The translations under genes were made by a program, and so were the position numbers. Below are positions 17,355-35,428 of a stretch of DNA of 35,428 nucleotides, one piece after another. Position 1 is the stretch's first letter. Every line of letters starts with the position of its first letter. The notes under the pieces were generated by a model. It saw only the letters and a list, made by a program, of their open reading frames with translations, did not search any database and was not told the origin of the DNA. The stretch is from Lentisphaerota bacterium (GTDB lineage Bacteria; Verrucomicrobiota; Kiritimatiellia; RFP12; UBA1067), in contig DUPH01000162.1 of NCBI GenBank assembly GCA_012838435.1, forward strand, positions 1 through 35,428. The letters are read 5' to 3'.

Positions 17355-17423
17355 GGTAGATATCCACGATGTGGAGACTTTCGTTACGTTGGGTAAAATC
17401 TCATTTTGCGATGGCTTTGACAA

Positions 17424-17630: not shown

Positions 17631-20576
17631 ATGCCGATCAGTTGGAATGAGATCAGACAGAACGCCATCCGTTTTTCTCGCGAATGGGCGGATGAGTACC
17701 GCGAGGACGCGGAGGCCAAATCTTTCTGGGATGAGTTTTTCGGCGTCTTCGGCGTCCGCCGCCGTCTCTTGGCCACCTTCGAGGAGCCCGTCCGCAAGAT
17801 CAACGGCCAGTACGGCTACATCGACCTTTTCTGGCGCGGCGTCATGCTCGCCGAGCACAAGAGCCGCGGCAAGTCCCTCGACAAGGCCGAATCACAGGCC
17901 TTCAGCTACATTCAGGATCTTGCCCGCGAGCAGCGCTTCGAGGAACTTCCCCGCTTCGTCATTCTTTCTGATTTTGAGCGCATCGCGCTGTATGATCTCG
18001 AACCCGAGGATCAACTCGACCTGCCGCTTTTCGAATCCCGCCATTACTACAAGAACGAGTTCCTGCTCAAGGATCTCCACAAGCACCTTCACGACTTTGC
18101 CTTCATCGCCGGTTACCGGCAGCACCGCCTGCGTGACGAAGACCCCATCAACATCCGAGCTGTTGAGATCCTCGGCGATCTCCACGACGCGCTGGCCGCC
18201 GGCGGCTACGCGGGCCATGACCTTGAGCGCTTCCTCGTGCGCATCCTTTTCTGCCTCTTCGCCGACGACACCGGCCTTTTCGAGCCCGACAGCTTCAAGC
18301 TCTACATCGAGAACCGCACCGCCTCCGACGGCTCTGACTTGGGCCTGCACCTAGCACAGCTCTTCGAGGTGCTGAACACCCCGTCCGAGCGGCGACAGGC
18401 GCATCTCGATGACATGCTCGCCGCCTTCCCGCACGTCAACGGGGAGTTGTTCAAAGAGCGTCTGGCATTCGCCAGTTTCAACCGCGCTATGCGCGATGCA
18501 CTGTTGCGGTGTACCGAGTTCGACTGGTCGGCCATTTCGCCCGCCATCTTCGGCTCGCTCTTTCAGGGCGTGATGGATCCCAAGGAACGCCGCCAGACCG
18601 GTGGACACTATACCTCCGAACGCGACATCCTCAAGGTCGTCAACGCGCTCTTCATGGACGACTTGCGGACGGAGTTCGCAAAGGCGCGGCACAACAAAGC
18701 CCTGCTCAAGCAGTTCCACCGGAAACTTGGAACCCTCCGCTTCTTCGATCCGGCGTGCGGGTGCGGCAACTTTTTGGTCATCACCTACCGCGAACTGCGC
18801 CTGTTGGAGATCGACGTCCTCAAAGCCCTGTTCGGGAAAGAGGTACAGCAGGAACTGGACATTCAGGCGCTGTCAAAGGTAGACGTCGACGCCTTTACCG
18901 GTATCGAAATCCAGGAGTGGCCTGCCCGCATCGCCGAAGTCGCCATGTGGCTCATGGACCACCAGATGAATATCCGCCTTTCGGAAGCGTTCGGCCAATA
19001 CTTTGTACGTCTGCCGCTCAAGAAATCCGCCAACATCGTTCTTGGCAACGCCCTTCGTCTCGATTGGAAGACGATTCTTCCGCCTGATCAATGTTCGTAC
19101 GTGCTCGGCAATCCGCCTTTCGTTGGCAAGCACTACCAGTCTGCGGAACAGAAAGCTGACATGGCGTCCGTTTTCGGCAAATTCAAGAACATCGGCGACC
19201 TCGACTACGTGACCTGTTGGCACTACCGTGCGGCTGAGTATATCCAAGGCACGGCCATCGTGGTTGGCTTCGTGTCCACCAACTCGATCACCCAAGGCGA
19301 ACAGGTGCCGCTGATCTGGGGCCTGCTCTTCGATAAGTGGCACATCAAGATCCACTTTGCCCACCGGACGTTTCCGTGGGCCAGCGAGGCGCGCGGCAAG
19401 GCGCATGTCCACGTGGTCATCATCGGCTTTGCCGCGTTCGACATCCCTGGCAAAAAGTTGTTTGACTACGACTCCGGCAACGGGGATGCCGCCGTGATCG
19501 AAGCGATCAACATCGGTCCCTATCTCACGCCCGGCCCCGACGCATTCGTCACCAAGCGTCAGAAGCCGATCTCGCCCGTGCCGGAAATGCGCTGCGGCAG
19601 CAAGCCGTCTGACGGCGGCAACCTGATTCTGACGGACAGCGAACGGGACGCGCTGGTCGCCGCCGAACCCGGCGCGAAGCAATACCTGCGGCGCTACACA
19701 GGGGCGGAAGAATTCATCAACGGCAACATGCGCTGGTGCCTCTGGCTCGAAGGCGCCGACCCGGGCAGTCTGCGCGCACTGCCGCTGGTTATGGAGCGCG
19801 TGGAGAAGGTGCGCGAGTTCCGGGAAAAGAGTACGGCCGCCCCCACCCGCAAAGCGGCAAAGACACCGGGGCTGTTCTTCTACCGCTCGCAGCCGACCAC
19901 CGATTACATCCTCATTCCCGAGGTTTCATCGGAACGGCGGCATTACATCCCGATCGGCATCGCGAGCCCGTCGCTCGTTCCGAGCAACAAATGTTTTCTG
20001 CTACCGACAACCGACCTCTATCTATTCGGCGTGTTGACCTCCGCCATGCACATGGCGTGGATGCGTCAAGTGGGCGGACGTTTGGAGTCGCGGTATAGCT
20101 ACTCGCGCACGATGGTCTACAATACCTTCCCGTGGCCGCGGCTCAGCCTGCCGATCCAGGAGGGTGACGCCTGCGTCCGGGAAGCGGCGTCACGGCTCTA
20201 TTGGTCGTCGTATCACGAAGGCGGGGAGTACGAAAACGCCCCGCGTCCGCAACCGGGGGAACCCCGGTCTGTCCGCCTGACCGGCGACGCGCGGAAGAAG
20301 GCCGCCGTTGAGGCCAAGGCAAAGGCCGTGCTCGATGCGCGGGCGAGATATCCGCTCTCGACGCTGGCTGACCTCTACGATCCCCTGACCATGCCCGCCG
20401 ATCTGGTGAAGGCGCATGCCGACCTCGACCGCGCGGTAGACCGTTGCTACCGCTCCCAGCCTTTCACCTCCGAACGCCAGCGCGTGGAGTTTCTCTTCGC
20501 CCTCTACGAGAGCTACACCGCGCCGTTGCTTCCGGCGGAGAAGACGAGAAGGCGTCGGGGACGCAGAAGTCCGTAA
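17631..20576 (+). CDS. MmeI-like type IIL restriction-modification enzyme
   Basis: 981 residues, the usual size for single-chain MmeI relatives, which cut and methylate with one polypeptide. The N-terminal nuclease has the D-x9-E-x-K signature intact (D65, E75, K77 in YIDLFWRGVMLAEHKSRG). A helical connector (about 160-340) ends in GGHYTSERDILKVV. The gamma-class N6-adenine methyltransferase follows, with motif I FFDPACGCGNFL (about 373) and motif IV GNPPFVGK (about 493). The target-recognition domain is about 640-830 and a C-terminal helical domain closes the chain. No separate methyltransferase or specificity gene is needed or present. A GGAG site precedes the ATG. The acetyltransferase gene begins 23 bp downstream, so the enzyme may share a transcript with carbohydrate genes, which is unusual for a defence gene. 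Recognition sequence cannot be read off. Confidence 0.92.
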   Translation: MPISWNEIRQNAIRFSREWADEYREDAEAKSFWDEFFGVFGVRRRLLATFEEPVRKINGQYGYIDLFWRGVMLAEHKSRGKSLDKAESQAFSYIQDLAREQRFEELPRFVILSDFERIALYDLEPEDQLDLPLFESRHYYKNEFLLKDLHKHLHDFAFIAGYRQHRLRDEDPINIRAVEILGDLHDALAAGGYAGHDLERFLVRILFCLFADDTGLFEPDSFKLYIENRTASDGSDLGLHLAQLFEVLNTPSERRQAHLDDMLAAFPHVNGELFKERLAFASFNRAMRDALLRCTEFDWSAISPAIFGSLFQGVMDPKERRQTGGHYTSERDILKVVNALFMDDLRTEFAKARHNKALLKQFHRKLGTLRFFDPACGCGNFLVITYRELRLLEIDVLKALFGKEVQQELDIQALSKVDVDAFTGIEIQEWPARIAEVAMWLMDHQMNIRLSEAFGQYFVRLPLKKSANIVLGNALRLDWKTILPPDQCSYVLGNPPFVGKHYQSAEQKADMASVFGKFKNIGDLDYVTCWHYRAAEYIQGTAIVVGFVSTNSITQGEQVPLIWGLLFDKWHIKIHFAHRTFPWASEARGKAHVHVVIIGFAAFDIPGKKLFDYDSGNGDAAVIEAINIGPYLTPGPDAFVTKRQKPISPVPEMRCGSKPSDGGNLILTDSERDALVAAEPGAKQYLRRYTGAEEFINGNMRWCLWLEGADPGSLRALPLVMERVEKVREFREKSTAAPTRKAAKTPGLFFYRSQPTTDYILIPEVSSERRHYIPIGIASPSLVPSNKCFLLPTTDLYLFGVLTSAMHMAWMRQVGGRLESRYSYSRTMVYNTFPWPRLSLPIQEGDACVREAASRLYWSSYHEGGEYENAPRPQPGEPRSVRLTGDARKKAAVEAKAKAVLDARARYPLSTLADLYDPLTMPADLVKAHADLDRAVDRCYRSQPFTSERQRVEFLFALYESYTAPLLPAEKTRRRRGRRSP

Positions 20577-20599: not shown

Positions 20600-21772
20600 A
20601 TGAAAGAGAAATCTCATAGCGAACGTCTGATGTCGTTGGATGCGTTGCGGGGCGCAGACATGCTTTTCATCATGGGCTTTTCCGGTGCGATCGTAGCGCT
20701 TTGCGAGGTCTGCGGCTTCGGGCGCGATTGTTGGCTGGCAACGCAGATGACGCATGTTGCTTGGCATGGTTTTCGGCACCATGATACGATCTTCCCCCTA
20801 TTCCTGTTTCTCGCCGGGGTGTCCTGGCCGTTTTCCTATGCGAAACAGGTCGCGATGGGACGTTCAAAGGCACAGATCGTCCGGAAGATCCTTTTGCGTG
20901 CGTTTTGTCTGTTTGCGATTGGATTGATGTGGTCGGATCTGTTTAGCTTCAACTGGCGGATGTACCGGTGGGATTCCGTTCTGGCGCATATCGGCATTTG
21001 CTGGGCTGGCGCGGCATTGATCTTCATGTTCGTCAAGAATTGGCGTGTACGGCTGGGGCTGGCGGCGGTGATACTCGTTGGTTATTGGCTGATGCTTGTC
21101 TGTTTCCGCGCGCCGGACGCAGAGGCGCTGCTCGCGTCGACAGATCCAGGGGTGATGAAGAAGGTTGCCTCTTACGCGACCTACGGTACAGATAACTTCT
21201 CGTTTACGGGGAACATCGTTGGGTGGTTCGACCGGACGTTCATGCCCGGGCGCCTCCATGAAGGAATTTTCGATCCGGATGGGCTCTTATGCAAGTTGAC
21301 CGGCCTAGTGACGGCGATGCTCGGCACGTTCGCCGGTGAACTGTTGCGGCGCACGGACTTGTCCGGCAATCGCAAGACCCTGATCCTGTTGGGGGCGGGG
21401 GTGGTTTCGTTGCTCGTGTGCCTTGTCTGGATGCCTTGGTGCCCGGTCAACAAGAAGATCTGGACGCCGACGTTTGTTCTGGCTGCCGGCTCTTATTCCT
21501 TCATCGCTTTGGCTGTTTTTTATTGGATAATCGATGTCAGAGGATGGCGTCGTTGGTCATTCTTCTTTCAGGTTATCGGTATGAATGCCATCACCATCTA
21601 TGTGATTCGTAGAGTCGTTCCTCTGCGTCCCATCGGAGAGTTCTTCCTCAAGGGTGTTGCATCCAGGGGTGATGCCGCGTGGAGTTCGCTCGTCCTCTCG
21701 ATGGGCGAGGTTGCCGTTGGATGGCTGATACTCTGGTTCCTCTATCGCAAAAAGGTGTTTCTCAAGGTCTGA
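20600..21772 (+). CDS. NagX/HGSNAT-like membrane acyltransferase (DUF5009-type)
   Basis: Polytopic inner-membrane protein of 390 residues with about ten hydrophobic segments. The N-terminal SLDALRGADMLFIMG (12-26) and HVAWHGFRHHDTIFPLFLFLAGVSWPFS (52-79) are hallmarks of the heparan-alpha-glucosaminide N-acetyltransferase/NagX family, in which a periplasm-side sugar amine is acetylated with acetyl-CoA from the cytoplasm. The histidines around 52-61 are candidates for the acetyl-accepting residue. AGAGGAA stands 8-14 nt before the ATG. The secreted glycosidase-like gene begins 2 nt after this stop, so the pair is translationally linked. This suggests that sugars released by, or presented to, that protein are acetylated at the membrane. 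The exact substrate is not shown. Confidence 0.87.
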   Translation: MKEKSHSERLMSLDALRGADMLFIMGFSGAIVALCEVCGFGRDCWLATQMTHVAWHGFRHHDTIFPLFLFLAGVSWPFSYAKQVAMGRSKAQIVRKILLRAFCLFAIGLMWSDLFSFNWRMYRWDSVLAHIGICWAGAALIFMFVKNWRVRLGLAAVILVGYWLMLVCFRAPDAEALLASTDPGVMKKVASYATYGTDNFSFTGNIVGWFDRTFMPGRLHEGIFDPDGLLCKLTGLVTAMLGTFAGELLRRTDLSGNRKTLILLGAGVVSLLVCLVWMPWCPVNKKIWTPTFVLAAGSYSFIALAVFYWIIDVRGWRRWSFFFQVIGMNAITIYVIRRVVPLRPIGEFFLKGVASRGDAAWSSLVLSMGEVAVGWLILWFLYRKKVFLKV

Positions 21773-21774
21773 AT

Positions 21775-23433
21775 ATGAAAAGAAAAACAACAGGATTCGT
21801 TGCCGCGGCCGTTGCGCTTGCGGCGGGTATTAACGCGGCTGAACTGCCGCCGCTCATGATGATTCGTCTGCGGGCACCGCATACGGCGGATGACGCGCAG
21901 TGGGCAAAGACGCGCACCGTGCTCGTCGCAAACCGCGGCGCGTGCGATGAGGTATGGTTCTCGACGGGCATCGGCGTGCCGACGCTTGCCTGGCACGCTG
22001 CGCATGCAGAGCGTCTCGCGCGGTACGCCGCTGAACTGCGCGCGGCCGGCATCGTGCCGAGCTTGCAAGTACAGGCGACGCTCGGCCATTCCGACGAACT
22101 CTCCGCGCTTGAAGGCACGCCTGCGAAGACGTGGGGCGGTTTCACTGGACGCGGCGGTACGGAATGCCGTCACTGTAACTGTCCGCGTCAGCCCGATTTC
22201 CTTGCCTACGTGCGCGAGATGTCGCGGCTCTATGCGTCGTTCAAGCCTAGGAGCGTGTGGATCGATGACGATCTGCGTGTCGCCGGGCACGCGCCTGGGT
22301 CACCGTGGGGCAAGGTTAAGGACGGCTGGATCGGCTGTTGGTGCCCAACATGTCTCGCGGCGTTCAACGCTGAGATGAAGACGAACTGGACGCGCGAAAC
22401 GTTAGACGCCGCGATGGCGAAGGATACAAAGCTTTTCGACCGTTGGGAGGCGTTTTCGTTCGCAGGTATCGCCGCCGTTGCACGCGCGATCGCTGAGGAG
22501 TTTCACAAGGTTTCGCCGACGACGCGTCTCGCCTATCAGCACGGCGATTACCGCAACGATTCGCTGCTCGCCGTCTTCCGTGCGCTGCACGAGGCGACGG
22601 GACTTCCGGTCGGGTCGCGTCCCGGGGGCGGCGCGTACTACGACCAGAACCCCAATCTGCAGATGATCAAAGCGTTCGGCGCGGCGTACACTCGGAAACA
22701 GTTGGGAAATCCCGACTGGATCGATACATGGTGTCCCGAAGTCGAGACGTATCCGCGCGCATTCGCAAGCCGGACGGCGCAGGGCATCATGAACGAGGCG
22801 TTTGTCAATCTCGCGCTCGGCATGAACACCGTGAGCTTGCTGATTATGGACACGCGCTATGAAACCGACGCATGGTACGGCGAGTGCCTCCTTGCGCCGC
22901 TTGCGGCGGAACGGTCTGTGCTCGAGGGCTATCGCAAACACAACGAAGGGAGTGTTCCCGTGGGGCTGAAGGACGCGACAACAGTATCGAAGGGAAAGCT
23001 TTACGAGTTCGCGCTTGTGGGCGTCCCCGTCGTACCGGGCGTCGGAAAAACGTTCGGCGAAGTGACCAATGCCGATCTGTCGTTCAACCTCAGCGCGATG
23101 TCGTCGCGGCAGATCCTTGATCTTCGGCAACGGATGGATACGCGCGCTGGCGGCAAGCTGCCCGTTATTGCCGAGACGCCGTCTGTCGGCCTTGTCATAC
23201 CACGCATGGCGCCCGATGGCGTGCTTCGGAGCGTCGCATTCATCAACGCGCGCATCGATGTGCAGCCGCCGATTACGTTACGCCTCCGTGGCGTCGCGCC
23301 GGACAAGGCGTCCGCCACCTGGCATGCTTTGCGTGCCGCACCGGTGACGGTGCCGCTTGTTCGCGCCGATGGCGAAACGCGGGCGACCCTGCCGCCGCTT
23401 GCCGCATGGAATTGCGGTTGGCTGGAACTGTAG
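21775..23433 (+). CDS. Secreted glycosidase-like protein of unknown family
   Basis: 552 residues from the ATG at 21775, giving a signal peptide (MKRKTTGFVAAAVALAAGINA). An upstream in-frame start inside the acetyltransferase gene would lose it. The body reads like a TIM-barrel hydrolase of the GH-A type: early TGIGVPTLAWHAAHAERL, the strand-end acidic cluster SVWIDDDLRV (about 158-167), TRLAYQHGDY, GGGAYYDQNPN, WCPEVETYPRAF (about 319) and a C-terminal beta-sandwich (about 450-552). Two cysteine groups, CRHCNC and CWCPTC, could form disulfides or a metal site. The adjacent stop/start (2 nt) ties it to the NagX-like gene. I do not recognise a named family. Amino-sugar or N-acetylated polymer cleavage is a guess from context. 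Confidence 0.7.
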   Translation: MKRKTTGFVAAAVALAAGINAAELPPLMMIRLRAPHTADDAQWAKTRTVLVANRGACDEVWFSTGIGVPTLAWHAAHAERLARYAAELRAAGIVPSLQVQATLGHSDELSALEGTPAKTWGGFTGRGGTECRHCNCPRQPDFLAYVREMSRLYASFKPRSVWIDDDLRVAGHAPGSPWGKVKDGWIGCWCPTCLAAFNAEMKTNWTRETLDAAMAKDTKLFDRWEAFSFAGIAAVARAIAEEFHKVSPTTRLAYQHGDYRNDSLLAVFRALHEATGLPVGSRPGGGAYYDQNPNLQMIKAFGAAYTRKQLGNPDWIDTWCPEVETYPRAFASRTAQGIMNEAFVNLALGMNTVSLLIMDTRYETDAWYGECLLAPLAAERSVLEGYRKHNEGSVPVGLKDATTVSKGKLYEFALVGVPVVPGVGKTFGEVTNADLSFNLSAMSSRQILDLRQRMDTRAGGKLPVIAETPSVGLVIPRMAPDGVLRSVAFINARIDVQPPITLRLRGVAPDKASATWHALRAAPVTVPLVRADGETRATLPPLAAWNCGWLEL

Positions 23434-26947: not shown

Positions 26948-28342
26948 TCAGGGGCATTCGCGCTTAAAGAATTTTTGGCGACCCCGTGGCCATACGGCGT
27001 TGGTCGGAGACCACTCAGTATCCAAGCGTTCCCAGCGATCCGTTAGGCGGTCCTTACCGAACAGCACCGAGACAGGTGACGGCGTCGATGGCCACGCGAG
27101 GACAACGTCGTCTGCAGAGACGTTGATCGCGCCGATACCCGCAGGCGGCACGGGAGTTTGCTGCGGCTCATGACCGATGATGGTGCCATTGTTAATAAAC
27201 GTGCCGTACACGACGATGGCTCCAAGGTTGGTGATGGTGCCGTTATTGATAAACGTTACGTTCTGCCCGATGATCAACTCTTGTCCATTCGTGACAATCA
27301 GAGACCTGTCCGCAGGAAGCGCTGTGTCAGCGGTCACGGCACTCGCGGCCCCGTACATCTGCCCGCCGTCCGGTGTGATAAGGACGCCGCGACGGAAATC
27401 GAGCCCGGCGACTGGTGTGTTGGCAAAGACAAAGGCATTGCCTGAAATGTGTCCGGTCGCCGCTCCCCCGGAAGAACCTCCGCCGATCGCCTCCGCTCTG
27501 TAACTTCCCTGCGCCTCTATGACGCCGCCGTATAGGGTAACGACGCCACCGGTTCCAGCATGACCGCCGCCGATCCCAGCTCCTCCGTACTGGTATGCTG
27601 CGCCCCCGCCACGTGCTGTGACATGTCCACCTGAAATCGTGACACACCCCGAAGATTCGTACAGGTGGCCCCCGATGCCAGCACTGCTTGCACTTCCCAG
27701 TGCCACCAATGCACCGTTCGTCGGACATGCCGCCACACCTGGGGCACAGTCTATAAACATCGCCGCCCCCTCTGGAACATGCATGCCGGCAGTCCTAGAA
27801 CCACCAAGGAAGGTGTTGGTTCCTGCAAGGAAGAGATGCGCGCACGCCCCCGGATACACATCGAAAGCGCACACATCCCCGGCCGTCACGCGGACATTGA
27901 CGTTTGAAAGAACCAAATCAACATCCGTATCCCGAGCCACGCATATTCGGTTTGCTGTGGGCGCGCCTGTTCCGTAGAGCAGGTAGTGCCCTTTCCAACA
28001 GAAATTCAGGCATCCATCGGAAAACGTAAATCCATAGCCATCGGTGGAAACCGTGTTGACATTGATCTCGATCGGATCGGCCGCACTGCCAGCCAGCCCG
28101 ACTCCAACCGGCACGGCTCCCGTCACAACTCCCGTCCCGCCGATGGGCAAGGCTGAGAAGGCTTGTCCGAAATTGACATATTCGCCGTCGACCGTGAACA
28201 TGCCATAGACTCTGATGAGCCCGATGTTTTCAAGAACGCCGTCAACGGCAAGTGTTCCGTACACATTGATGGAACCCGCGTTGGTCACGACGGTCTCTGC
28301 GCCAATCGTCAGGGACTGTTCTGCGGCGACATCAAACACCAC
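26948..28342 (-). CDS. Glycine-rich beta-helical surface protein, downstream half after an in-frame TGA
   Basis: 464 residues from a GTG at 28342, although this start is probably not native: the frame continues upstream without shift through five sense codons to a single TGA at 28358-28360 and into the upstream half. The content is beta-solenoid-like, with TIGAETVVTNAGSINVYGTLAVDG rungs repeated later as IIGQNVTFINNGTITNLGAIVVYGTF, and a central block of ISGGHVTARGGG...GGAGIGGGHAGTGG repeats. A C-terminal tail (VLFGKDRLTDRWERLD...FFKRECP) resembles the short conserved end of surface proteins in this bacterial group. No catalytic motif is seen; carbohydrate binding or adhesion is plausible. 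It needs export, yet this half has no signal peptide. Confidence 0.7.
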   Translation of the reverse strand: MVFDVAAEQSLTIGAETVVTNAGSINVYGTLAVDGVLENIGLIRVYGMFTVDGEYVNFGQAFSALPIGGTGVVTGAVPVGVGLAGSAADPIEINVNTVSTDGYGFTFSDGCLNFCWKGHYLLYGTGAPTANRICVARDTDVDLVLSNVNVRVTAGDVCAFDVYPGACAHLFLAGTNTFLGGSRTAGMHVPEGAAMFIDCAPGVAACPTNGALVALGSASSAGIGGHLYESSGCVTISGGHVTARGGGAAYQYGGAGIGGGHAGTGGVVTLYGGVIEAQGSYRAEAIGGGSSGGAATGHISGNAFVFANTPVAGLDFRRGVLITPDGGQMYGAASAVTADTALPADRSLIVTNGQELIIGQNVTFINNGTITNLGAIVVYGTFINNGTIIGHEPQQTPVPPAGIGAINVSADDVVLAWPSTPSPVSVLFGKDRLTDRWERLDTEWSPTNAVWPRGRQKFFKRECP

Positions 28343-28357
28343 ATTTGAAGGTATGCA

Positions 28358-29551
28358 TCAGGAATGGGGAATCGAGACGTGGTCACTGAGCAAGCGTCCC
28401 CGGCCATTCGTTGCGATCAGTCCTCCTTCGCAGGCGATGTTCGAATGGATGAGGTCTGTGATAACTACGGTGTTGCTTCCCGTTATACTCCCTGAACGGG
28501 GCAATAGCGTTGCAGTGGCGCGGGGAGGGGAACCAATGATGCCCGGTAACTGCTCATGAGCACCTACCGCATGAACAATACCGCCTGATATATTGACCGT
28601 CCAGCCGCCCTTGTAATTGTCGCCGCCGATGGATGCCCCGCCCGAACTGCCACCCGCAGCGGTCACAATGCCGCCAGAGATCGAAATGTCCACCATCGAC
28701 TCGGCACCGCCTTCACCACAGCCGATGCCCGCACCGCCATGACCGCCGAATGCCGTCACGTCGCCACCAGAGATGCTGATGGTGCCGCCGCCCGTGCCGC
28801 TCCCCGAGTATCCCGCCCCTCCGCCGATGCCCGCAGCTCCCGATGTTCCACCGTACGCGCGGATCGTTCCGCCGACGATCGTGATCGCTCCACAATTCTG
28901 CCCGTCGCACCCGCCGATGCCGGAGCCTGTTGTCTCACCGACTGCCGCAAGACTGCCGCCAGTCGGCACGGCATCGAAAACCACCGAGGCACCAGCGGGA
29001 ACCTGAATCCCCGCAGCGTGATTGTAGGCTTCTCCATATTCTTTTTCTGTGTCAGAGTATATCGGGTGCCAACCGGTGATAAACGCATTGCTCCCCGCCA
29101 GCGTCACATAAACAGGGGGACCGTTTTCAAGGAGAAAGGGCGACAGGTCGGCTTGTCCCGACGTACTGACATAGACGTTGGACAGCATAACGTGCGTCAT
29201 GCTGTCCTCGCCATACGAAATCGGCGGCGCAACCCGGATGGCGATGTTCGTCTTCTCGCCTGTTCCCAGAATCAGGTAATGCATGTTTTCGGTTGCAGGG
29301 GTCAACTCGACATGATCGCCATGAAACTGAAACCCTTCATAATAGGCATTTTCATCCAAGGCATTGATGTTAATCACGAACGGCTGATCCGCATCGCCTG
29401 GTTCGCCGAAGAGACTCGGTGCCGAACACACGTCCGCAAGGCAAAGCGCATACACGCACGCCTTCCCATTACGTCCAATATGCGATATTCCGGCTCCTGT
29501 CATATCCACCTGCTTTCTACGCCGCGCATTACTTATGCGCAAAGCCCACAT
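28358..29551 (-). CDS. Glycine-rich beta-helical surface protein, upstream half ending at an in-frame TGA
   Basis: 397 residues ending ...SDHVSIPHS then TGA. The next codons continue the same beta-strand pattern, so with the downstream half the intact protein would be about 863 residues. Repeats: YVTLAGSNAFITGW, IQVPAGASVVFDA, then SGIGGCDGQNCGAITIVGGTIRAYGGTSGAAGIGGGAGYSG and further ISGG(D/I)VTA(F/A)GG units, the same class as in the downstream half. The first residues (MWALRISNARRRKQVD) are not a signal peptide. An ATG at 29503 preceded by AGGTGG is an alternative start, also without a clear signal. The 5' end may therefore be truncated. Function unknown; surface carbohydrate-binding or adhesion is likely. 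Confidence 0.7.
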   Translation of the reverse strand: MWALRISNARRRKQVDMTGAGISHIGRNGKACVYALCLADVCSAPSLFGEPGDADQPFVININALDENAYYEGFQFHGDHVELTPATENMHYLILGTGEKTNIAIRVAPPISYGEDSMTHVMLSNVYVSTSGQADLSPFLLENGPPVYVTLAGSNAFITGWHPIYSDTEKEYGEAYNHAAGIQVPAGASVVFDAVPTGGSLAAVGETTGSGIGGCDGQNCGAITIVGGTIRAYGGTSGAAGIGGGAGYSGSGTGGGTISISGGDVTAFGGHGGAGIGCGEGGAESMVDISISGGIVTAAGGSSGGASIGGDNYKGGWTVNISGGIVHAVGAHEQLPGIIGSPPRATATLLPRSGSITGSNTVVITDLIHSNIACEGGLIATNGRGRLLSDHVSIPHS

Positions 29552-29977: not shown

Positions 29978-32224
29978 TCATGGGGCGGGGAAGAGGGTTG
30001 GGAGCAGGCTGCCGGTGAGTTCGTCGTCAACCGCGAAGAAGGCGAAGCCGGCGAGACGGCGGCGGCGGGTTTCGGCGATCTGCAGCGCGGCGGTGACGGC
30101 ATCGAACTGGCATTCGTCAGCGCCGCTGCCGAGACCGGGCACGAGTTTGTCCGCTGGCGCGGCGGCGAGGCACGCGGCGAGCTGTGCGTTGAAATCGGCC
30201 GGGCTTTCGGTGTAGATCATCGGGCAGGCGAAGTCGATCAGTCCGTCGCGCAGCCATTCGGGCCAGGCTTGGCCGTGCGCGGCAGCGGCGGCGGGCGTGG
30301 GGAAGACGGCGGCTGAGAGCGAGACTTCGGGAGCGGCGTCGCGCAGGGCGGCGCGGAGTTCGCGGATGAAGGTGGTCATGGTGGCGCGGCGAAATTCGGC
30401 GAAGGGCGCGGCGAGCGCGCCGCCGGGCAGGACGTCGGCGGGCCAGGCGGCGACGGGCTGGCCGCGCGCGGCTTCGAAGGCTTTGCGGGTGGCGGGCGCG
30501 TAGCAGCCGGTGGTTTCGGGGTAGCGCACGTAGTCGAGGTGGATGCCGGCCACGCCGCGGCGGGCGAGGGTACGCAGGCTGTCGATCAGCAGGACGCGGT
30601 TTTCGGGCAGGGAGGGGCAGAGCCAGGGCAGTGTGTTGCCGGCGGCGTCGCGCATCAGGCGGTCTTCGCGGGTGAGGCGCGTAATCAGGGCGGGGGCGGC
30701 ACCTTCGAGCGTCCAGCAGGTGACCCAGGCGTGAAGGGCGGTCTTGTGGCGGTCTGCGGCGGTGAGGGCTTCCGCCAGCGTATCGACAGAGGCGCGGCGA
30801 CCGGACTGCGTATAGAGCGGGGTGGCGGCGCTTTGCCAGTGGACGAAAAGGGTGTTGACGCGGTGCGCGGCGAGTTGGTCGAGTAGGCCTCGCCAGCCGC
30901 GCGGATGGCGGGCGGTCGGCAGCGGATTCCAAGCGGCGCGCATTTCGTTGGCGACGGTGGCGGCAGGGAGCGGAGCCGGGGCGGCCGGTGGCGGCAGGGG
31001 CGCCAGGCCGAGGTTGGGACAGAGGCTGCGGGCAAGGGTGTTCATCAGGGCGGCGGCGGAGGGGTAGGCCAGCGGCGGGACATGGGCGAACCAGACGCCG
31101 CGCGGGGTGAGCGCGCAGGCCGGAATGTCGGTATTGCGGCCGGTATCGTCGGCCCAGGTGGCCACGACGCGGGCGTCGGTGCCGGGACGGACGGAGGGAG
31201 GGATGATGCTGGTGGTGACGTGGGGGACGCGCGCCGGGGCACCGGGCAGGCGCGAGGGATCGCAGATCAGGGCGGACCAGGGCTGCGCGGGTTCGGAGCC
31301 TTGCCAGGTGCCGGGGCGCAGGCCGAGGCTGGCGGCGAGTTGGGGCGAGGCGTTGTAGAAGACGATAATGCGGCCGTTGCGGTCGACAAAGCGGGTGAGG
31401 CGGCTGAGTTGGCGTGAGGGGAGGGTGGGGGAGTAGGGCAGGAGCAGGAGCGTGTAGGGGTCGAGTGCGTCGAGCGAGTCGTCGATGACGGTGCAGGGGA
31501 TGTCGGCTTTGGCGAGCAGGCGGACACAGCGGTCGGTGAGGGCGTCGGCGAGGGCGGTTTCGCCCGGTGCGGTGGTGTCGCTGGCGCGGACGATGGCGAC
31601 GGCATCGGTGCGGGCGGAGGCGGCGTTGAGGGTGATGAGGGTGGTGCCGGCGCTCTGTTTCCAGGCGGAGATGCGCAGGGTGTGGGATTTTTTCCAGGGG
31701 CCGGGGCGGCCTTCGGGCTGGAAGATGCCGCGCGGCAGGTCGAGGCGTCGGCGCTGGCCGGAGGTGAAGGCGGGGGAGGCGTTATACCAGCCCTTGCCGG
31801 ACTGGAGGTGGATCGAGAGGCCGCGGATCGGCGCGGCATCGGTGCAGGAGAGGGTAAGCTGGAGGGCTGTGGCGGTCTTCGGGATGCGGGCGGGAAGGGG
31901 GATGTCCCAGTAGACGCGCTCGTGCGGGCCATCGAAGCGCACGGGCAGGCGCAGGCCGTCAGGGGCGGCTTCGGCAGGGAGCGTGGCTTCGCCGGCGCGG
32001 ATCTCGGCGGCGGCGGGGAAGGGAGGGAGGATCGGCGTTTCGGCGGCGGTGCAACGGAGGGCGGCGCAGAGCAGGACGGCCGCTGCGCGGCTGATTAGGG
32101 GGGCTCGTGCAAAATCCCCCGTGACATGGGCGTCCCGCCCATGAAACACGGGCAAGATGCCCGTGCCACACCTGCAAGCAAGAGGTTTTGCAATATCCTC
32201 TAGGGAGAAACCTTCAACTTTCAA
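29978..32224 (-). CDS. Secreted GHL10-type (DUF187) glycoside hydrolase-like protein
   Basis: Up to 748 residues. The C-terminal half (about 420-740) is a family-10-like TIM barrel: NEMRAAWNPL, LLDQLAAHRVNTLFVHWQSAATPLY, LHAWVTCWTLEG, the hallmark GIHLDYVRYPET, and DFACPMIYTESP. The N-terminal half is beta-rich (about 60-220) and then has a glutamine-amidotransferase-like alpha/beta segment (about 230-400; CTVIDDSLDALDPYTLLLLPYSP). A signal peptide (LISRAAAVLLCAALRCTAAE) lies near residue 42. No ATG precedes it in frame: the open frame begins with TTG at 32224 in a heptad array and passes through a double-hairpin repeat read as GTGILPVFHGRDAHVTG. The true start is thus a TTG or GTG between 32146 and 32224. 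Exported polysaccharide hydrolase, substrate unknown. Confidence 0.85.
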   Translation of the reverse strand: MKVEGFSLEDIAKPLACRCGTGILPVFHGRDAHVTGDFARAPLISRAAAVLLCAALRCTAAETPILPPFPAAAEIRAGEATLPAEAAPDGLRLPVRFDGPHERVYWDIPLPARIPKTATALQLTLSCTDAAPIRGLSIHLQSGKGWYNASPAFTSGQRRRLDLPRGIFQPEGRPGPWKKSHTLRISAWKQSAGTTLITLNAASARTDAVAIVRASDTTAPGETALADALTDRCVRLLAKADIPCTVIDDSLDALDPYTLLLLPYSPTLPSRQLSRLTRFVDRNGRIIVFYNASPQLAASLGLRPGTWQGSEPAQPWSALICDPSRLPGAPARVPHVTTSIIPPSVRPGTDARVVATWADDTGRNTDIPACALTPRGVWFAHVPPLAYPSAAALMNTLARSLCPNLGLAPLPPPAAPAPLPAATVANEMRAAWNPLPTARHPRGWRGLLDQLAAHRVNTLFVHWQSAATPLYTQSGRRASVDTLAEALTAADRHKTALHAWVTCWTLEGAAPALITRLTREDRLMRDAAGNTLPWLCPSLPENRVLLIDSLRTLARRGVAGIHLDYVRYPETTGCYAPATRKAFEAARGQPVAAWPADVLPGGALAAPFAEFRRATMTTFIRELRAALRDAAPEVSLSAAVFPTPAAAAAHGQAWPEWLRDGLIDFACPMIYTESPADFNAQLAACLAAAPADKLVPGLGSGADECQFDAVTAALQIAETRRRRLAGFAFFAVDDELTGSLLPTLFPAP
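32124..32165. repeat. Dispersed double-hairpin repeat (GTGILPV type)
   Basis: Two perfect palindromes side by side: CATGGGCGTCCCGCCCATG (32124-32142) and CACGGGCAAGATGCCCGTG (32147-32165), each an 8-bp stem with a 3-nt loop. It is read through by the start of the GHL10 gene. Confidence 0.85.
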
Positions 32225-32273: not shown

Positions 32274-32642
32274 CTACTCCCATTTGTAGACGGAGTCGGA
32301 CTCTTGAGAGGCCGCCATGTTGAGATACTTGTTAGGGGTGAACTGGCGGAAGGCCGAGACGGTTGCTCCTTCGTTGCCATTGCTTGGATAGGCGGGGTAA
32401 AAGGGGGAGCCCGCATTCTGGGGGTGCTGGGGAGGGATGCTTCCGATGGACACCTGTTGGAAGGGGTCTGAGAGTTTGACCGGGTGGTTTTTCTGGGTGT
32501 CCGGGGGTTTGGCGGACGGGGCGGTATGGCGTGTTTTTGGACCCCGTTTGTGGAAAATGCTTTTGTAGAAAGCCACGATCAGAAAAAAGACGCCCAGCAC
32601 GGAGGCGATGAGCGTGACATCGGAAATGGGAAGTTTAGCCAT
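32274..32642 (-). CDS. Small single-pass membrane protein of unknown function
   Basis: 122 residues. One N-terminal membrane helix (about 8-28, VTLIASVLGVFFLIVAFY) is followed by a basic patch (KSIFHKRGPKTR), placing the rest in the cytoplasm by the positive-inside rule. The tail is Pro/Gln/Ser-rich (SIGSIPPQHPQNAGSPFYPAYPSNG) and ends YLNMAASQESDSVYKWE. No enzyme motif. AGGA lies 9 nt before the ATG. It is the last gene of the receiver/KaiC-like/ExeA-like operon, 24 bp after the ATPase stop, so it is probably a membrane partner of those ATPases or of the divergent glycosyltransferase. I do not recognise a family. Confidence 0.75.
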   Translation of the reverse strand: MAKLPISDVTLIASVLGVFFLIVAFYKSIFHKRGPKTRHTAPSAKPPDTQKNHPVKLSDPFQQVSIGSIPPQHPQNAGSPFYPAYPSNGNEGATVSAFRQFTPNKYLNMAASQESDSVYKWE

Positions 32643-32666
32643 ACGGATGAGTCCTGGATAAGCGGT

Positions 32667-33542
32667 TTAGAGGGAGGGTTGGAGTGTGGTGTCTCGTGCG
32701 GCAACCAACTCGTTGTGCAAGACATCAAGTCCGGTGTCGTGGGCGGCCTGTCTGACGATGTCCCTGGTCACGTTTGGGGATTGGGCTGCGAAGCCGAGCA
32801 ACAGGGCGGTGTCGCAGAGGTTATTGATGCTGCGCGGGACGCCCTGCGAATAGGTGTACACGGCGTCAAGGGCATCTTGGCCGAACACCCAGATGTCGCC
32901 ACCCACGGCACGTATGTGATGATGGACGTACTCGGTGGTCTGGGCAGCGGTGAGGGGTTCGAGGTGCCAGTCGAGCTGAATGCGGCGGCGGAGGGATTCG
33001 TGGCGGGCCAGCGCGGGGCGGATGTCATTGGTGCCGGCCAGAATGATGGTGAATAGCGGACACCCCTCTTTTCTCGTGGTTGCCGGGATGCGCAGGTTAC
33101 AGAGATAGTGGGCGAGGTAGAAGCCGTCGCCAACGGCGAGGTGCTGGGCTTCGTCGATAAGCAGGAGCGAACGGGTGAGCGAGTTGGAGTTGCGCTGGCA
33201 GTGGGCTTGGAGCGACATCAGCGCCTCGGGCAGGGTTTGTGCGTGGTCGGGCAGGTCGAGGGATCGCAGGATGTGGCGGGCCATCGGCAGGCTGCCGTTA
33301 GGGATGGCGTCGATCCTGGTGACTGGCAGCCGGGTCTTCGCGGCATGCCGGTGCAGGCATTCGAGTGTCATGGTTTTGCCGACGCCGTAGGCACCGGTGA
33401 GCAGTCCAGCGATGCGTTCCTGGTCGATCAAGTAGTACAGCCGGGCGATTCCTTCCCTGTGCTGCTCCGTCATGTAGATCAGACGATCATTCACGACGTT
33501 CAGGAAGGGCAGGCCGGTCAGGTTCCAGTAGGCGGTATACAT
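32667..33542 (-). CDS. ExeA-like AAA ATPase
   Basis: 291 residues, cytoplasmic. The opening MYTAYWNLTGLPF is the signature start of ExeA/GspA-type ATPases, including those found beside exopolysaccharide/exosortase genes. Walker A is GAYGVGKT (50-57), Walker B is LLLIDEAQHL (126-135), followed by sensor 1 around TIILAGTND and a sensor-2/arginine stretch LRRRIQLDWHLEPL. The C-terminal helices include GVPRSINNLCDTALLLG, typical of the family. The C-terminal peptidoglycan-binding domain of true ExeA is absent. It lies between a KaiC-like ATPase gene (22 bp) and a small membrane protein gene (24 bp). An energy-dependent assembly or regulatory role in polysaccharide export is inferred from the neighbourhood. 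Confidence 0.87.
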   Translation of the reverse strand: MYTAYWNLTGLPFLNVVNDRLIYMTEQHREGIARLYYLIDQERIAGLLTGAYGVGKTMTLECLHRHAAKTRLPVTRIDAIPNGSLPMARHILRSLDLPDHAQTLPEALMSLQAHCQRNSNSLTRSLLLIDEAQHLAVGDGFYLAHYLCNLRIPATTRKEGCPLFTIILAGTNDIRPALARHESLRRRIQLDWHLEPLTAAQTTEYVHHHIRAVGGDIWVFGQDALDAVYTYSQGVPRSINNLCDTALLLGFAAQSPNVTRDIVRQAAHDTGLDVLHNELVAARDTTLQPSL

Positions 33543-33564
33543 AAGGCACCAGAGTTATCGCTTG

Positions 33565-34434
33565 TTACGGGAGCTGAACCACGGAGGAAAAATGGATGGG
33601 TCTTTTTGGGGAACCGGCGGGGATCGCCGCCGCGGCCGCTAGGGATGGCGCTCTCGGTGACGCCGCCGTCGCCGGGGCTGCCGCTGGGTTTTGCCGGATC
33701 TGTTGCGGTTGGGGTTCGTCAGACAGGCCTGAGCAGGGGCAGGGCGCAGGATCGGTGGTGATGCCGACACCGGGCAAGATGACGAAGGGGAACGGCGTAG
33801 AGAGCTTGCTGCTCTCGCCGAGGTATTTGGTGACACGCAGGATGCGACATCTGTCATGGGTGTGGGCGAGATGGATAACGACCGGACAGAGATCCTCCAA
33901 CCGGTTCTTCAGGGTGTGAGCGGCATTGGAGGCGGGTTTAGGGAGGAGCAGTAGCGAGGTGGCGTCCAGACGCTCAAGTGCGTGGATGAAGGAATAGACG
34001 TGTTCGGCGATGCGCGTTATCGGCTGAATCGCAACCCACGGCAGTACGGGGTCGAACGCGATCCGGCGGATGGACTGCGATTCGACGATCCCGTGAAGCT
34101 CCATGAACGATTGGGGCGGCAACATGACGTTGTTACTGGTGCCGCTTTCCGTAATGAACGTGTTGTACTCCAGAATGGTCAATTGTCCGCTGTTGACGGC
34201 ATCCGCAAAGGGCATGCCGAGGCTTTCGGCGACAATGACCGTGTCCTGCGCCTGATATCGGGAGAGCAGAAGCGCCTTGTCGCCCTCCAGCAGCGCCTGG
34301 TTCAGGAAGTGGCAGGCGAGAATGGATTTACCGCTGCGGCGGCTTCCCCAGCAGAGCACCGGCCGTCCGCGGTAAACGCCGCCAAGGCACTCATCGAAGA
34401 ACGCGAGCCCTAACTTGGTTTTGTCGATGACCAT
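33565..34434 (-). CDS. KaiC/RadA-like RecA-fold ATPase
   Basis: 289 residues. The RecA core: GLAFFDECLGGVYRGRPVLCWGSRRSGKSILACHFL with Walker A GSRRSGKS (30-37), then GDKALLLSRYQ, a hydrophobic strand IRRIAFDPVLPWV in the Walker B position, and LDATSLLLLPKP. Only one RecA domain is present, against two in clock KaiC. The C-terminal 60 residues are Pro/Ala-rich and look disordered. Its start overlaps the 3' end of the receiver gene by 44 nt, so the two are tightly coupled. This matches KaiC-like single-domain ATPases that work with two-component proteins. What it acts on is unknown; polysaccharide synthesis control is inferred from the divergent synthase. Confidence 0.8.
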   Translation of the reverse strand: MVIDKTKLGLAFFDECLGGVYRGRPVLCWGSRRSGKSILACHFLNQALLEGDKALLLSRYQAQDTVIVAESLGMPFADAVNSGQLTILEYNTFITESGTSNNVMLPPQSFMELHGIVESQSIRRIAFDPVLPWVAIQPITRIAEHVYSFIHALERLDATSLLLLPKPASNAAHTLKNRLEDLCPVVIHLAHTHDRCRILRVTKYLGESSKLSTPFPFVILPGVGITTDPAPCPCSGLSDEPQPQQIRQNPAAAPATAASPRAPSLAAAAAIPAGSPKRPIHFSSVVQLP

Positions 34435-34840
34435 GGTTTGTCTCTTTTTCCGGGACGTTACACGTTACTGTTTCGGGGTTGTTCTGGAAAACATTTTGCA
34501 GAATATTCTTAATGAAAACCAGTTCGAACGGCTTGCTCAGGAAGGCGAGCGCGCCGTTGGCTTTTGCGCAGGCATCCAGTTCGGCGGATGGCGCACCGGA
34601 GATCAGAACAACGGGAATGTCTTTGGCTTTCCGGCACAACCTTGTCACCCAGGCCTGGGCGTCAGGTGCGTCCGGGAGCCGGATGTCGGCGATGACCAGT
34701 TGAAACCCGCCTTCGTCCAGTTTAGCTAATGTGTCGGACGCATTCAGTGTGACTTCAACCTGATGCCCCAACCGCGTGATCAGGTTTGCCAGATAATCAC
34801 CAATGGTCCGCTCATCGTCAACGATCAACACTTTTCCCAT
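34391..34840 (-). CDS. Response regulator receiver-domain protein
   Basis: 149 residues from the ATG at 34840, chosen because GGAGCAGG precedes it and MGKVLIVDDE is a standard receiver start. CheY-like domain: acidic pocket D8/D9, phospho-acceptor D52 in LVIADIRLPD, S81 in VLISGAPS, and K103 in FLSKPFE. All key residues are present, so it should be phosphorylated. The receiver ends near residue 120; the last 30 residues (NNPETVTCNVPEKETNHGHRQ) look like an extension created by overlap with the next gene. No DNA-binding output domain and no histidine kinase is nearby. It is first in an operon with two P-loop ATPases, implying that it signals by protein contact, probably to the KaiC-like ATPase. 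Confidence 0.9.
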   Translation of the reverse strand: MGKVLIVDDERTIGDYLANLITRLGHQVEVTLNASDTLAKLDEGGFQLVIADIRLPDAPDAQAWVTRLCRKAKDIPVVLISGAPSAELDACAKANGALAFLSKPFELVFIKNILQNVFQNNPETVTCNVPEKETNHGHRQNQVRARVLR

Positions 34841-34952
34841 AACCTGCTCCACAACACATCCACTCACGAAAGCGACTGCTCCGCCCAGTGGCCAATGCGT
34901 CATAAACCAGAGTAATCTCAGGTTTTTGCGTTTAGTGTTACAAAAAGTGCGG

Positions 34953-34981
34953 TTGCGGTCAAAGACAAAAGGTCATATACT
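34953..34981 (+). promoter_or_regulatory. Sigma70-like promoter for the glycosyltransferase gene
   Basis: TTGCGG (34953-34958) and TATACT (34976-34981) are separated by 17 nt, with transcription starting about 25 bp before the ATG at 35014. It lies in the 173-bp divergent region shared with the receiver operon. Confidence 0.6.
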
Positions 34982-35013
34982 TTGTGGCAACTCACAAAGC
35001 AATGCCATCGGAT

Positions 35014-35428
35014 ATGCAGACGTATATGACCCATCAAACGACCCGTGGCGGCGGGATTGTCACCGGCCGGAGATGCCGGTGCGAGTTCTGCCATCTATCG
35101 GTCCACGTGATCGAGACGCCGATACCGACCGTATGCCCGTACTGTCGGCGGTCGCTCACCCATGAAACCACCGCCCTGCCGGTGGCGCCGGAGTTTCCGG
35201 TGCCGACCGGGCAGGAAGTGAAGAGCCGCTTGGACAAACTCTATTCGCGGCCGCCCAAACTGCTGGTCTTGCTGATTTCGTTTACGGCGATGTTTATGCT
35301 GGGCTGGGCGGTGTTTCTGCAATTGCGCAGCGCGGAGAACTATTGGTATCAGCCGATGGTAAGCATCTACTCCCTGCTGGCGGGATTGTTCGTTGTCTCG
35401 CGCTTTATCATCGCTGCTTTTTACTTGC
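35014..35428 (+). CDS. Membrane glycosyltransferase (GT2-type synthase) with N-terminal zinc-ribbon, cut by window edge
   Basis: 138 residues visible from the ATG at 35014 (a second ATG in frame is at 35026). It starts with a two-CxxC zinc-ribbon-like motif, CRCEFCHL...PTVCPYCRR (about residues 21-46). Two membrane helices follow: LLVLLISFTAMFMLGWAVFL (about 84-103) and SIYSLLAGLFVVSRFIIAAFY (about 117-137). The second is the signature approach to the catalytic domain in processive family-2 synthases (cellulose, hyaluronan and chitin synthase-like), whose GT-A domain would begin just beyond the window. Divergent transcription from the receiver/ATPase operon suggests shared control of an exopolysaccharide. 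The GT2 call rests on the helix pattern only; the catalytic residues are outside the sequence. Confidence 0.65.
   Translation, partial: MQTYMTHQTTRGGGIVTGRRCRCEFCHLSVHVIETPIPTVCPYCRRSLTHETTALPVAPEFPVPTGQEVKSRLDKLYSRPPKLLVLLISFTAMFMLGWAVFLQLRSAENYWYQPMVSIYSLLAGLFVVSRFIIAAFYL

Follow-up and report, generated by a model that had tools for sequence, protein, structure and literature searches.

A stand-alone receiver, a KaiC-like protein, an ExeA-like ATPase and a one-helix membrane protein (TM1), encoded side by side near the right end of contig DUPH01000162.1 of a Lentisphaerota bacterium, on balance make up the cytosolic control and assembly module of a synthase-dependent exopolysaccharide secretion system of the poly-N-acetylglucosamine (PNAG)/cellulose type. 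The best reading of the module is a phosphorelay-gated assembly or activation of the synthase, which would work like the BcsE/F/R/Q proteins of E. coli. The order receiver-KaiC-ATPase is conserved across Kiritimatiellia, nearly always within this export locus. The window, i.e., the whole stretch of 35,428 nucleotides analysed here, is the entire contig (G000:C29); its source bin is roughly 90% complete, and the closest named relatives of the window genome are the Kiritimatiellae/Verrucomicrobia bins L089 and L090.

The synthase-dependent machine is known, while its proposed control module is new within the open-licence literature, where searches for Kiritimatiellota, Kiritimatiellae or KaiC, each together with exopolysaccharide, found no description of the locus. 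Also new are the KaiC fold without the catalytic glutamate pair, the F-S-S-V-like tail of the KaiC-like protein, the tail motifs of TM1 and, at the level of the order, the near-absence of GGDEF and the lack of PilZ.

Gene content and order of the locus

The analysis of open reading frames (ORFs) and Pfam domains placed all five genes of the earlier note (receiver, KaiC-like protein, ExeA-like ATPase, TM1 and a GT2 synthase) within positions 32274-35428. The minus-strand genes, read leftwards from the right end, encode the receiver, the KaiC-like protein, the ExeA-like ATPase, TM1 and a glycoside-hydrolase-like GHL10 protein. The operon proposed earlier was borne out in its gene set, but its extent had been drawn too small, as the GHL10 gene follows TM1 in most relatives. 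This last gene of the operon (29978-32224, minus strand; PF02638, E 2e-12) encodes 748 aa when read from TTG, its true start being uncertain, and a homologue follows the ExeA-like or TM1 genes in most loci of the order and in several of the class.

The divergent intergenic region between the receiver and GT2 genes, with no strand assigned, measures 173 bp according to the ORF coordinates (34841-35013), exactly as claimed before. It contains one sigma-70 site, not a convincing one, against 0.8 expected, and the search of the region for sigma-70 promoters and terminators gave no excess over chance. The previously described 44-nt overlap of the receiver and KaiC-like genes (34391-34434) is real and is peculiar to the window genome; in relative L062, the receiver gene ends 36 nt before the KaiC-like gene. 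As relatives do without the overlap, it was set aside as a signal of translational coupling.

The final 127 bp of the window are identical to the first 127 bp of contig G000:C33 and match nothing else in the genome. The join of the two contigs is considered sound because the relatives L062 and L080 carry the same gene order on one unbroken contig. Reading to the right of position 35428 confirmed the GT2 domain and showed that export genes follow on contig C33.

Conservation of the gene neighbourhood

The ExeA-like ATPase was detected in 26 and the exporter of the locus in 30 of the 162 order genomes; both were present in 23 genomes, the ATPase only in 3, the exporter only in 7 and neither in 129 (Fisher p 9e-19, calculated on genomes that are not phylogenetically independent). 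Contig breaks account in part for the genomes that carry one without the other: the receiver and KaiC-like genes of G007 and G015 lie at contig ends, and G041 has a partial exporter. Most of the genomes are metagenome bins with short contigs, and several of the counts given below rest on related, non-independent genomes.

Two arrangements of the locus were found: a divergent one, as in the window, and a co-directional one, in which a receiver protein with a PAS domain is encoded between the exporter and the KaiC-like protein. Both the KaiC-like and receiver genes were found in 22/22 loci of the order with more than 1 kb of sequence upstream of the ATPase, the KaiC-like gene of L081, which the profile filter had missed, being counted from the reading of its neighbourhood. 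At the class level, a KaiC-like gene adjoins the ATPase in all 23 further loci (that of L182 counted from a separate neighbourhood reading), and a receiver was detected in 20 of them. These order and class counts partly overlap the named class-level loci L115-L127 and L157, ten of which carry the full trio; L118 and L124 carry the ATPase alone in other surroundings. Outside the class (L129-L156 and L158-L168, L131 being excluded as a copy of an order locus), KaiC-like neighbours of ATPase homologues were not found.

The gene neighbourhood is thus conserved far beyond chance, and its class-wide core is receiver-KaiC-ExeA. Both findings that the earlier note would have taken as refuting it are contradicted: the genes remain neighbours in related genomes up to the class level, and the protein starting at 35014 has a GT2 domain. 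TM1 is the member mostly limited to the order.

Two side observations concern the ATPase gene in the PVC/Kiritimatiellae loci L118 and L124. Both encode a close ExeA-like ATPase (~40% identity) without a KaiC-like neighbour or a recognised export-locus gene, and the ORF next to the ATPase in L118 begins like a sugar-nucleotide epimerase.

The synthase and the export machine

The 5' part of the GT2 synthase gene lies at 35014-35428 on the plus strand and continues on G000:C33 (L003:1-1194), giving a protein of 493 aa in full. Its start, ATG at 35014, is supported by MQTY at the same place in relatives from the genus. The gene had been predicted to encode a GT2 synthase with an N-terminal cysteine module, and this proved correct: the protein matches PF00535 (E 1.5e-23), keeps the NDGS, DSD, DDR and QQxRW motifs and carries an N-terminal RC..C..CPYC zinc ribbon, which occurs as RC..C..CP[YF]C in every full-length GT2 homologue of the loci. 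The NodC model (E 3e-43, 148.2 bits, below its curated cutoff) scores higher than the PgaC model TIGR03937 (E 4e-35, 121.6 bits against a curated cutoff of 422.3). The BLAST identity to PgaC of E. coli is 24% (E 1e-28); proteins of E. coli K-12 served as comparison sequences only.

On contig C33, the synthase gene is followed by genes encoding a PgaB-like protein of 1493 aa (L003:1176-5657), an MBOAT acyltransferase (L003:5666-7138), an SGNH/DUF459 protein (L003:7436-8143) and the exporter of 1224 aa (L003:8175-11849), in which tetratricopeptide repeats (TPR), a polysaccharide deacetylase domain and a C-terminal barrel are joined. The PgaB match of the first protein (E 7e-30) is confined to the deacetylase region, where the catalytic motif reads TFEQ instead of TFDD and the His pair is missing, as in nearly all readable homologues; the working deacetylase (TFDD, SH...H) and C-terminal hydrolase of PgaB were thus not recovered in it. 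The exporter's own deacetylase domain has TFDD and SH...H intact in this genome and is partly degraded in other lineages. The model of the exporter C-terminus shows 16 predicted strands (pLDDT 75), and its top Foldseek matches are BcsC (9b8a) and PgaA (4y25), so the predicted structure is that of a PgaA-type outer-membrane exporter with TPR and a 16-strand barrel.

The locus is a PNAG/cellulose-type export locus. The presence of MBOAT and SGNH proteins suggests O-acylation of the polymer, which is probably an amino-sugar polysaccharide modified during its exit. With the PNAG system PgaABCD, the locus shares a PgaB-like protein and an exporter with TPR and a predicted 16-strand barrel like PgaA; its GT2 synthase is homologous to PgaC but scores below the curated PgaC cutoff. 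It differs from PgaABCD in the degenerate deacetylase motif of the PgaB-like protein, the second deacetylase domain fused between TPR and barrel, the added MBOAT and SGNH proteins, the separate GHL10 protein and the zinc ribbon on the synthase. A PgaD-like gene was not seen among the annotated neighbours, no search aimed at PgaD having been made. The main text of a published survey of pga operons does not mention KaiC or response regulators (PMC7112194).

In the class-level loci L116, L119, L120, L121 and L122, the GT2 gene is directly preceded by another PgaB/TPR-like ORF (~780-800 aa), which may have arisen by duplication or splitting of part of the system.

The receiver

The receiver (34391-34840, minus strand; PF00072, E 1e-15) has 149 aa from ATG and its phosphoacceptor at D52. 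The complete phosphorylation pocket ascribed to it earlier is indeed intact (D8/D9, D52, Ser/Thr and Lys), and nearly all of 50 receiver homologues adjoining KaiC-like genes retain these residues; therefore, the receiver looks phosphorylatable. The receivers of the co-directional loci carry PAS domains, and in L085 the KaiC-like gene is adjoined by an Hpt-like ORF of 126 aa (PF01627, E 6e-6, barely above the cutoff); both strengthen the idea of a phospho-signal. The operon does not contain a histidine kinase. Nine genomes tested have 9-34 HATPase_c matches each, not all of which are necessarily histidine kinases.

A stand-alone receiver gene directly upstream of an ExeA-like ATPase gene, with no KaiC-like gene, was also observed in Methylomirabilota (L149:2841-4004) and Rokubacteria (L150:7436-8666), a hint that receiver and ATPase can be linked in the absence of KaiC. 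In co-directional loci, GHL10 is followed by a PTS IIA-like protein (L071:12351-12866; best model fruA, also PtsN), a possible metabolic input.

The KaiC-like protein

The KaiC-like protein (33565-34434, minus strand; PF06745, E 5e-17) consists of 289 aa with a single RecA-fold domain and a Pro/Ala-rich C-terminal linker. Its AlphaFold2 model (pLDDT 85.7) best matches the CI domain of KaiC in the Foldseek search (4tlb, TM 0.82 of target, 21% identity). The site of the catalytic glutamate pair of KaiC (FEET) is altered in each homologue covering it. Most of them, including the window protein (SRYQ), lack both glutamates; genera g14, g15 and g18 (FAES) and family f6 (FCES) retain one. The Walker A motif is present here (GSRRSGKS, 34324-34347, minus strand) and degraded in some lineages, reading GEGRE in g14, g15 and g18, GTN in L084 and GRT in L122. 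Judged by these residues, a full KaiC active site appears in no lineage, f6 coming closest.

Since the glutamate pair is broken throughout and Walker A is lost in some lineages, the KaiC-like protein looks like a scaffold, and it is probably a scaffold rather than a clock. Of the two ATPases named in the earlier note, the ExeA-like protein looks like a working enzyme, but the KaiC-like protein is doubtful, given the lost pair and the loss of the Walker A lysine in several lineages.

The protein ends in the peptide FSSVVQ (33574-33591, minus strand), a putative docking motif shared by the tails of its homologues. A strict F-S-S-V-like motif was found in 35 of 57 tails against a mean of 2.3 after shuffling, and a loose one in 51 of 57 against 12.8; as the motif was defined after the sequences had been inspected, these counts overstate its significance. 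The position of the peptide near the C-terminus is nearly constant.

The ExeA-like ATPase

The ExeA-like AAA ATPase (32667-33542, minus strand; 291 aa; PF13401 (AAA_22), E 3e-14) has intact Walker A (GAYGVGKT) and Walker B (LLLIDEA) motifs, and G50/G53/G55/K56 and D130/E131 are invariant among 18 homologues. Of the pair, it alone looks like a working ATPase. The search of solved structures with the ExeA-like alignment gave nothing at E up to 0.1.

The best NCBIfam model, TIGR03015 'XrtA/PEP-CTERM system-associated ATPase', is matched over its full length (E 9e-37), and a search of the open-licence literature for this model yielded nothing useful. The ATPase may have the role of its XrtA/PEP-CTERM counterpart in exopolysaccharide loci, or that of ExeA, and assist an envelope-spanning export part in crossing the cell wall, with the receiver and KaiC-like protein regulating that step alone. 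Besides the model being the closest named one, homologues outside the class without a KaiC neighbour agree with such a role, as does L143, where the ATPase follows a chain-length-determinant-like protein. However, the score of 127 bits falls far short of the curated cutoff (324.5), the ATPase consists of the AAA region without a further domain, and the exporter resembles the PgaA/BcsC barrels rather than a secretin. In addition, an exosortase was not seen in the annotated neighbourhood, a genome-wide search not having been made. We therefore regard this role as unlikely.

TM1

TM1 (32274-32642, minus strand; 122 aa, from the ORF) has one N-terminal hydrophobic helix. By the positive-inside rule, its tail is predicted to be cytosolic, as basic residues follow the helix. 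Its homologues were taken from 26 loci: all 26 end in Y.W[ERDQ], corresponding to the C-terminal motif Y-x-W-E (YKWE here, 32277-32288, minus strand), and 25 of the 26 contain P[VI][KR]L..PF in the middle of the tail (PVKLSDPF here, 32460-32483, minus strand). A weak Pfam match to the proline-rich salivary family PF15621, below the cutoff, was discarded as an effect of composition. TM1 occurs mainly in the order of the window genome and in two other members of the class.

Cyclic di-GMP components

GGDEF gave no match in 13 of the 14 order genomes carrying the locus, and PilZ gave none in all 14; the controls of both searches were positive in E. coli and others. The near-absence of cyclic di-GMP (c-di-GMP) parts is a feature of the order and not of every owner of the module.

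Comparison with known systems and proposed mechanism

In BcsE, an N-terminal RecA/KaiC-like domain with a diverged Walker A is combined with a degenerate receiver and a degenerate GGDEF domain; BcsE is recruited by BcsF, a one-helix protein whose tail adds a strand to the BcsE sheet, and in turn keeps the BcsRQ ATPase on the synthase (PMC7439463, PMC11470070). Like the type II BcsE/F/R/Q set of E. coli, the locus described here combines a degenerate KaiC/RecA-like NTPase and a receiver, a one-helix protein with a predicted cytosolic tail and what looks like a working ATPase beside a GT2 synthase and a TPR-barrel exporter. The counterpart of BcsE here has a CI-type fold and a broken glutamate pair and is encoded next to a receiver; the topology and conserved tail motifs of TM1 fit BcsF, recruitment by its tail being putative. 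Unlike in BcsE/F/R/Q, the receiver is separate and its pocket intact, there is neither a GGDEF* domain nor PilZ, the ATPase is AAA/ExeA-like rather than a SIMIBI protein such as BcsQ, and a different class of polymer is expected. Because no homology to BcsE was detected at the sensitivity used, the KaiC-like protein may be said to work like BcsE, not to be a BcsE. PF10995 (BcsE) had no match in it, and its membership in the BcsE family was rejected on the hhalign result given below, so that the analogy alone was kept.

A further parallel is offered by ArlH (FlaH), where a single KaiC-like domain likewise stands beside a separate working ATPase, ArlI, which is of the type-IV-pilus type; the machine is a different one, and the sequence similarity of ArlH to the KaiC-like protein is weak. 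ArlH binds ATP, lacks hydrolytic activity and stimulates the motor ATPase ArlI (PMC8978795).

We infer the mechanism from gene content, gene order, conservation and motifs. A histidine kinase encoded elsewhere would phosphorylate the receiver, which would then engage the KaiC-like scaffold. The scaffold itself would not cycle ATP in most lineages; its flexible tail peptide would hold the ExeA-like ATPase or another partner, and the cytosolic motifs of TM1 would anchor the assembly next to the synthase at the inner membrane. By turning over ATP, the ExeA-like protein would finally assemble or activate the GT2 synthase, and it is at this assembly or activity that we infer the signal to act. The module would fill the place that c-di-GMP has in the Bcs, Pga, Pel and alginate systems. 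In its widest form, this reading is advanced tentatively: Kiritimatiellia may control a PNAG/cellulose-type machine free of c-di-GMP, the signal passing from a phosphorylated receiver by way of a pseudo-ATPase scaffold derived from KaiC and an ExeA-like ATPase to the synthase, in convergence with BcsE/F/R/Q of E. coli, and RecA-fold pseudoenzymes may have been turned repeatedly into platforms for synthase assembly.

Several observations weigh against this interpretation. Walker A is intact in most KaiC-like homologues, that of the window included, and the f6 proteins keep both Walker A and one glutamate, so ATP binding or some hydrolysis by them is possible. TM1 was not detected in most class-level loci, and the membrane tether may be confined to some lineages or have a substitute elsewhere. 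The alignment of the KaiC-like protein against E. coli BcsE gave an hhalign probability of 0.2%, a weak test with BcsE entered as a single sequence. The order bins searched for c-di-GMP components are 81-96% complete, and four class-level genomes (G180, G213, G269 and G305) have GGDEF together with the module, two of the four also PilZ; therefore, the module is not strictly a replacement for c-di-GMP.

Instead of gating synthesis, the module could position the secretion machine at a pole or focus in the manner of ParA/MinD-type ATPases, the receiver setting where or when. The RecA-fold scaffold, AAA ATPase, membrane anchor and flexible docking peptides would also suit such a function, and the data do not separate placement from activation. 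However, no landmark protein is evident in the locus, and ExeA/AAA_22 is not known as a positioning family, which leaves positioning with a small chance of being right. It is very improbable that the genes are unrelated neighbours whose order was kept by common descent: all tight examples come from one class, but the order persists between lineages whose KaiC-like proteins are only ~23-45% identical, through both the divergent and co-directional arrangements, and with co-occurrence and co-absence across the 162 genomes. Finally, a circadian or timer ATPase behind periodic polymer production, to which the KaiC CI fold and the adjacent receiver might point, is hardly credible and was rejected, as the protein has one domain and not the two tandem RecA domains with catalytic glutamate pairs of circadian KaiC, the pair is broken in all homologues, Walker A is lost in several, and KaiA or KaiB genes were not noticed in the neighbourhoods, a genome-wide search for either not having been made.

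Synthase-dependent systems such as Bcs, Pga, Pel and alginate have become known chiefly as machines under c-di-GMP control. If the phosphorelay-gated assembly of the synthase is true, the receiver, KaiC-like protein and ATPase represent a second logic for switching such machines, and two orphan families, the stand-alone degenerate KaiC-like proteins and the ExeA-like ATPases of exopolysaccharide loci, gain a testable role. The parallel with BcsE/F/R/Q, if physically true, would clearly exemplify convergence in the logic of assembly.

Other features of the window

The remaining part of the window encodes a protein of 1640 aa (12501-17423) with an N-terminal DUF5107 and ~1,270 further residues without a Pfam match. 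A complete MmeI-like type IIG/IIL restriction-modification protein is located at 17631-20576, with all five MmeI Pfam domains and a PADLOC score of 1165 bits for REase_MTase_IIG; the two ORFs after it (20600-21772 and 21679-23433) have no Pfam or PADLOC match. Two adjacent ORFs on the minus strand (26948-28342, without a Pfam match, and 28358-29551) encode Gly-rich proteins with GIGGG-like repeats throughout, which resemble surface proteins.

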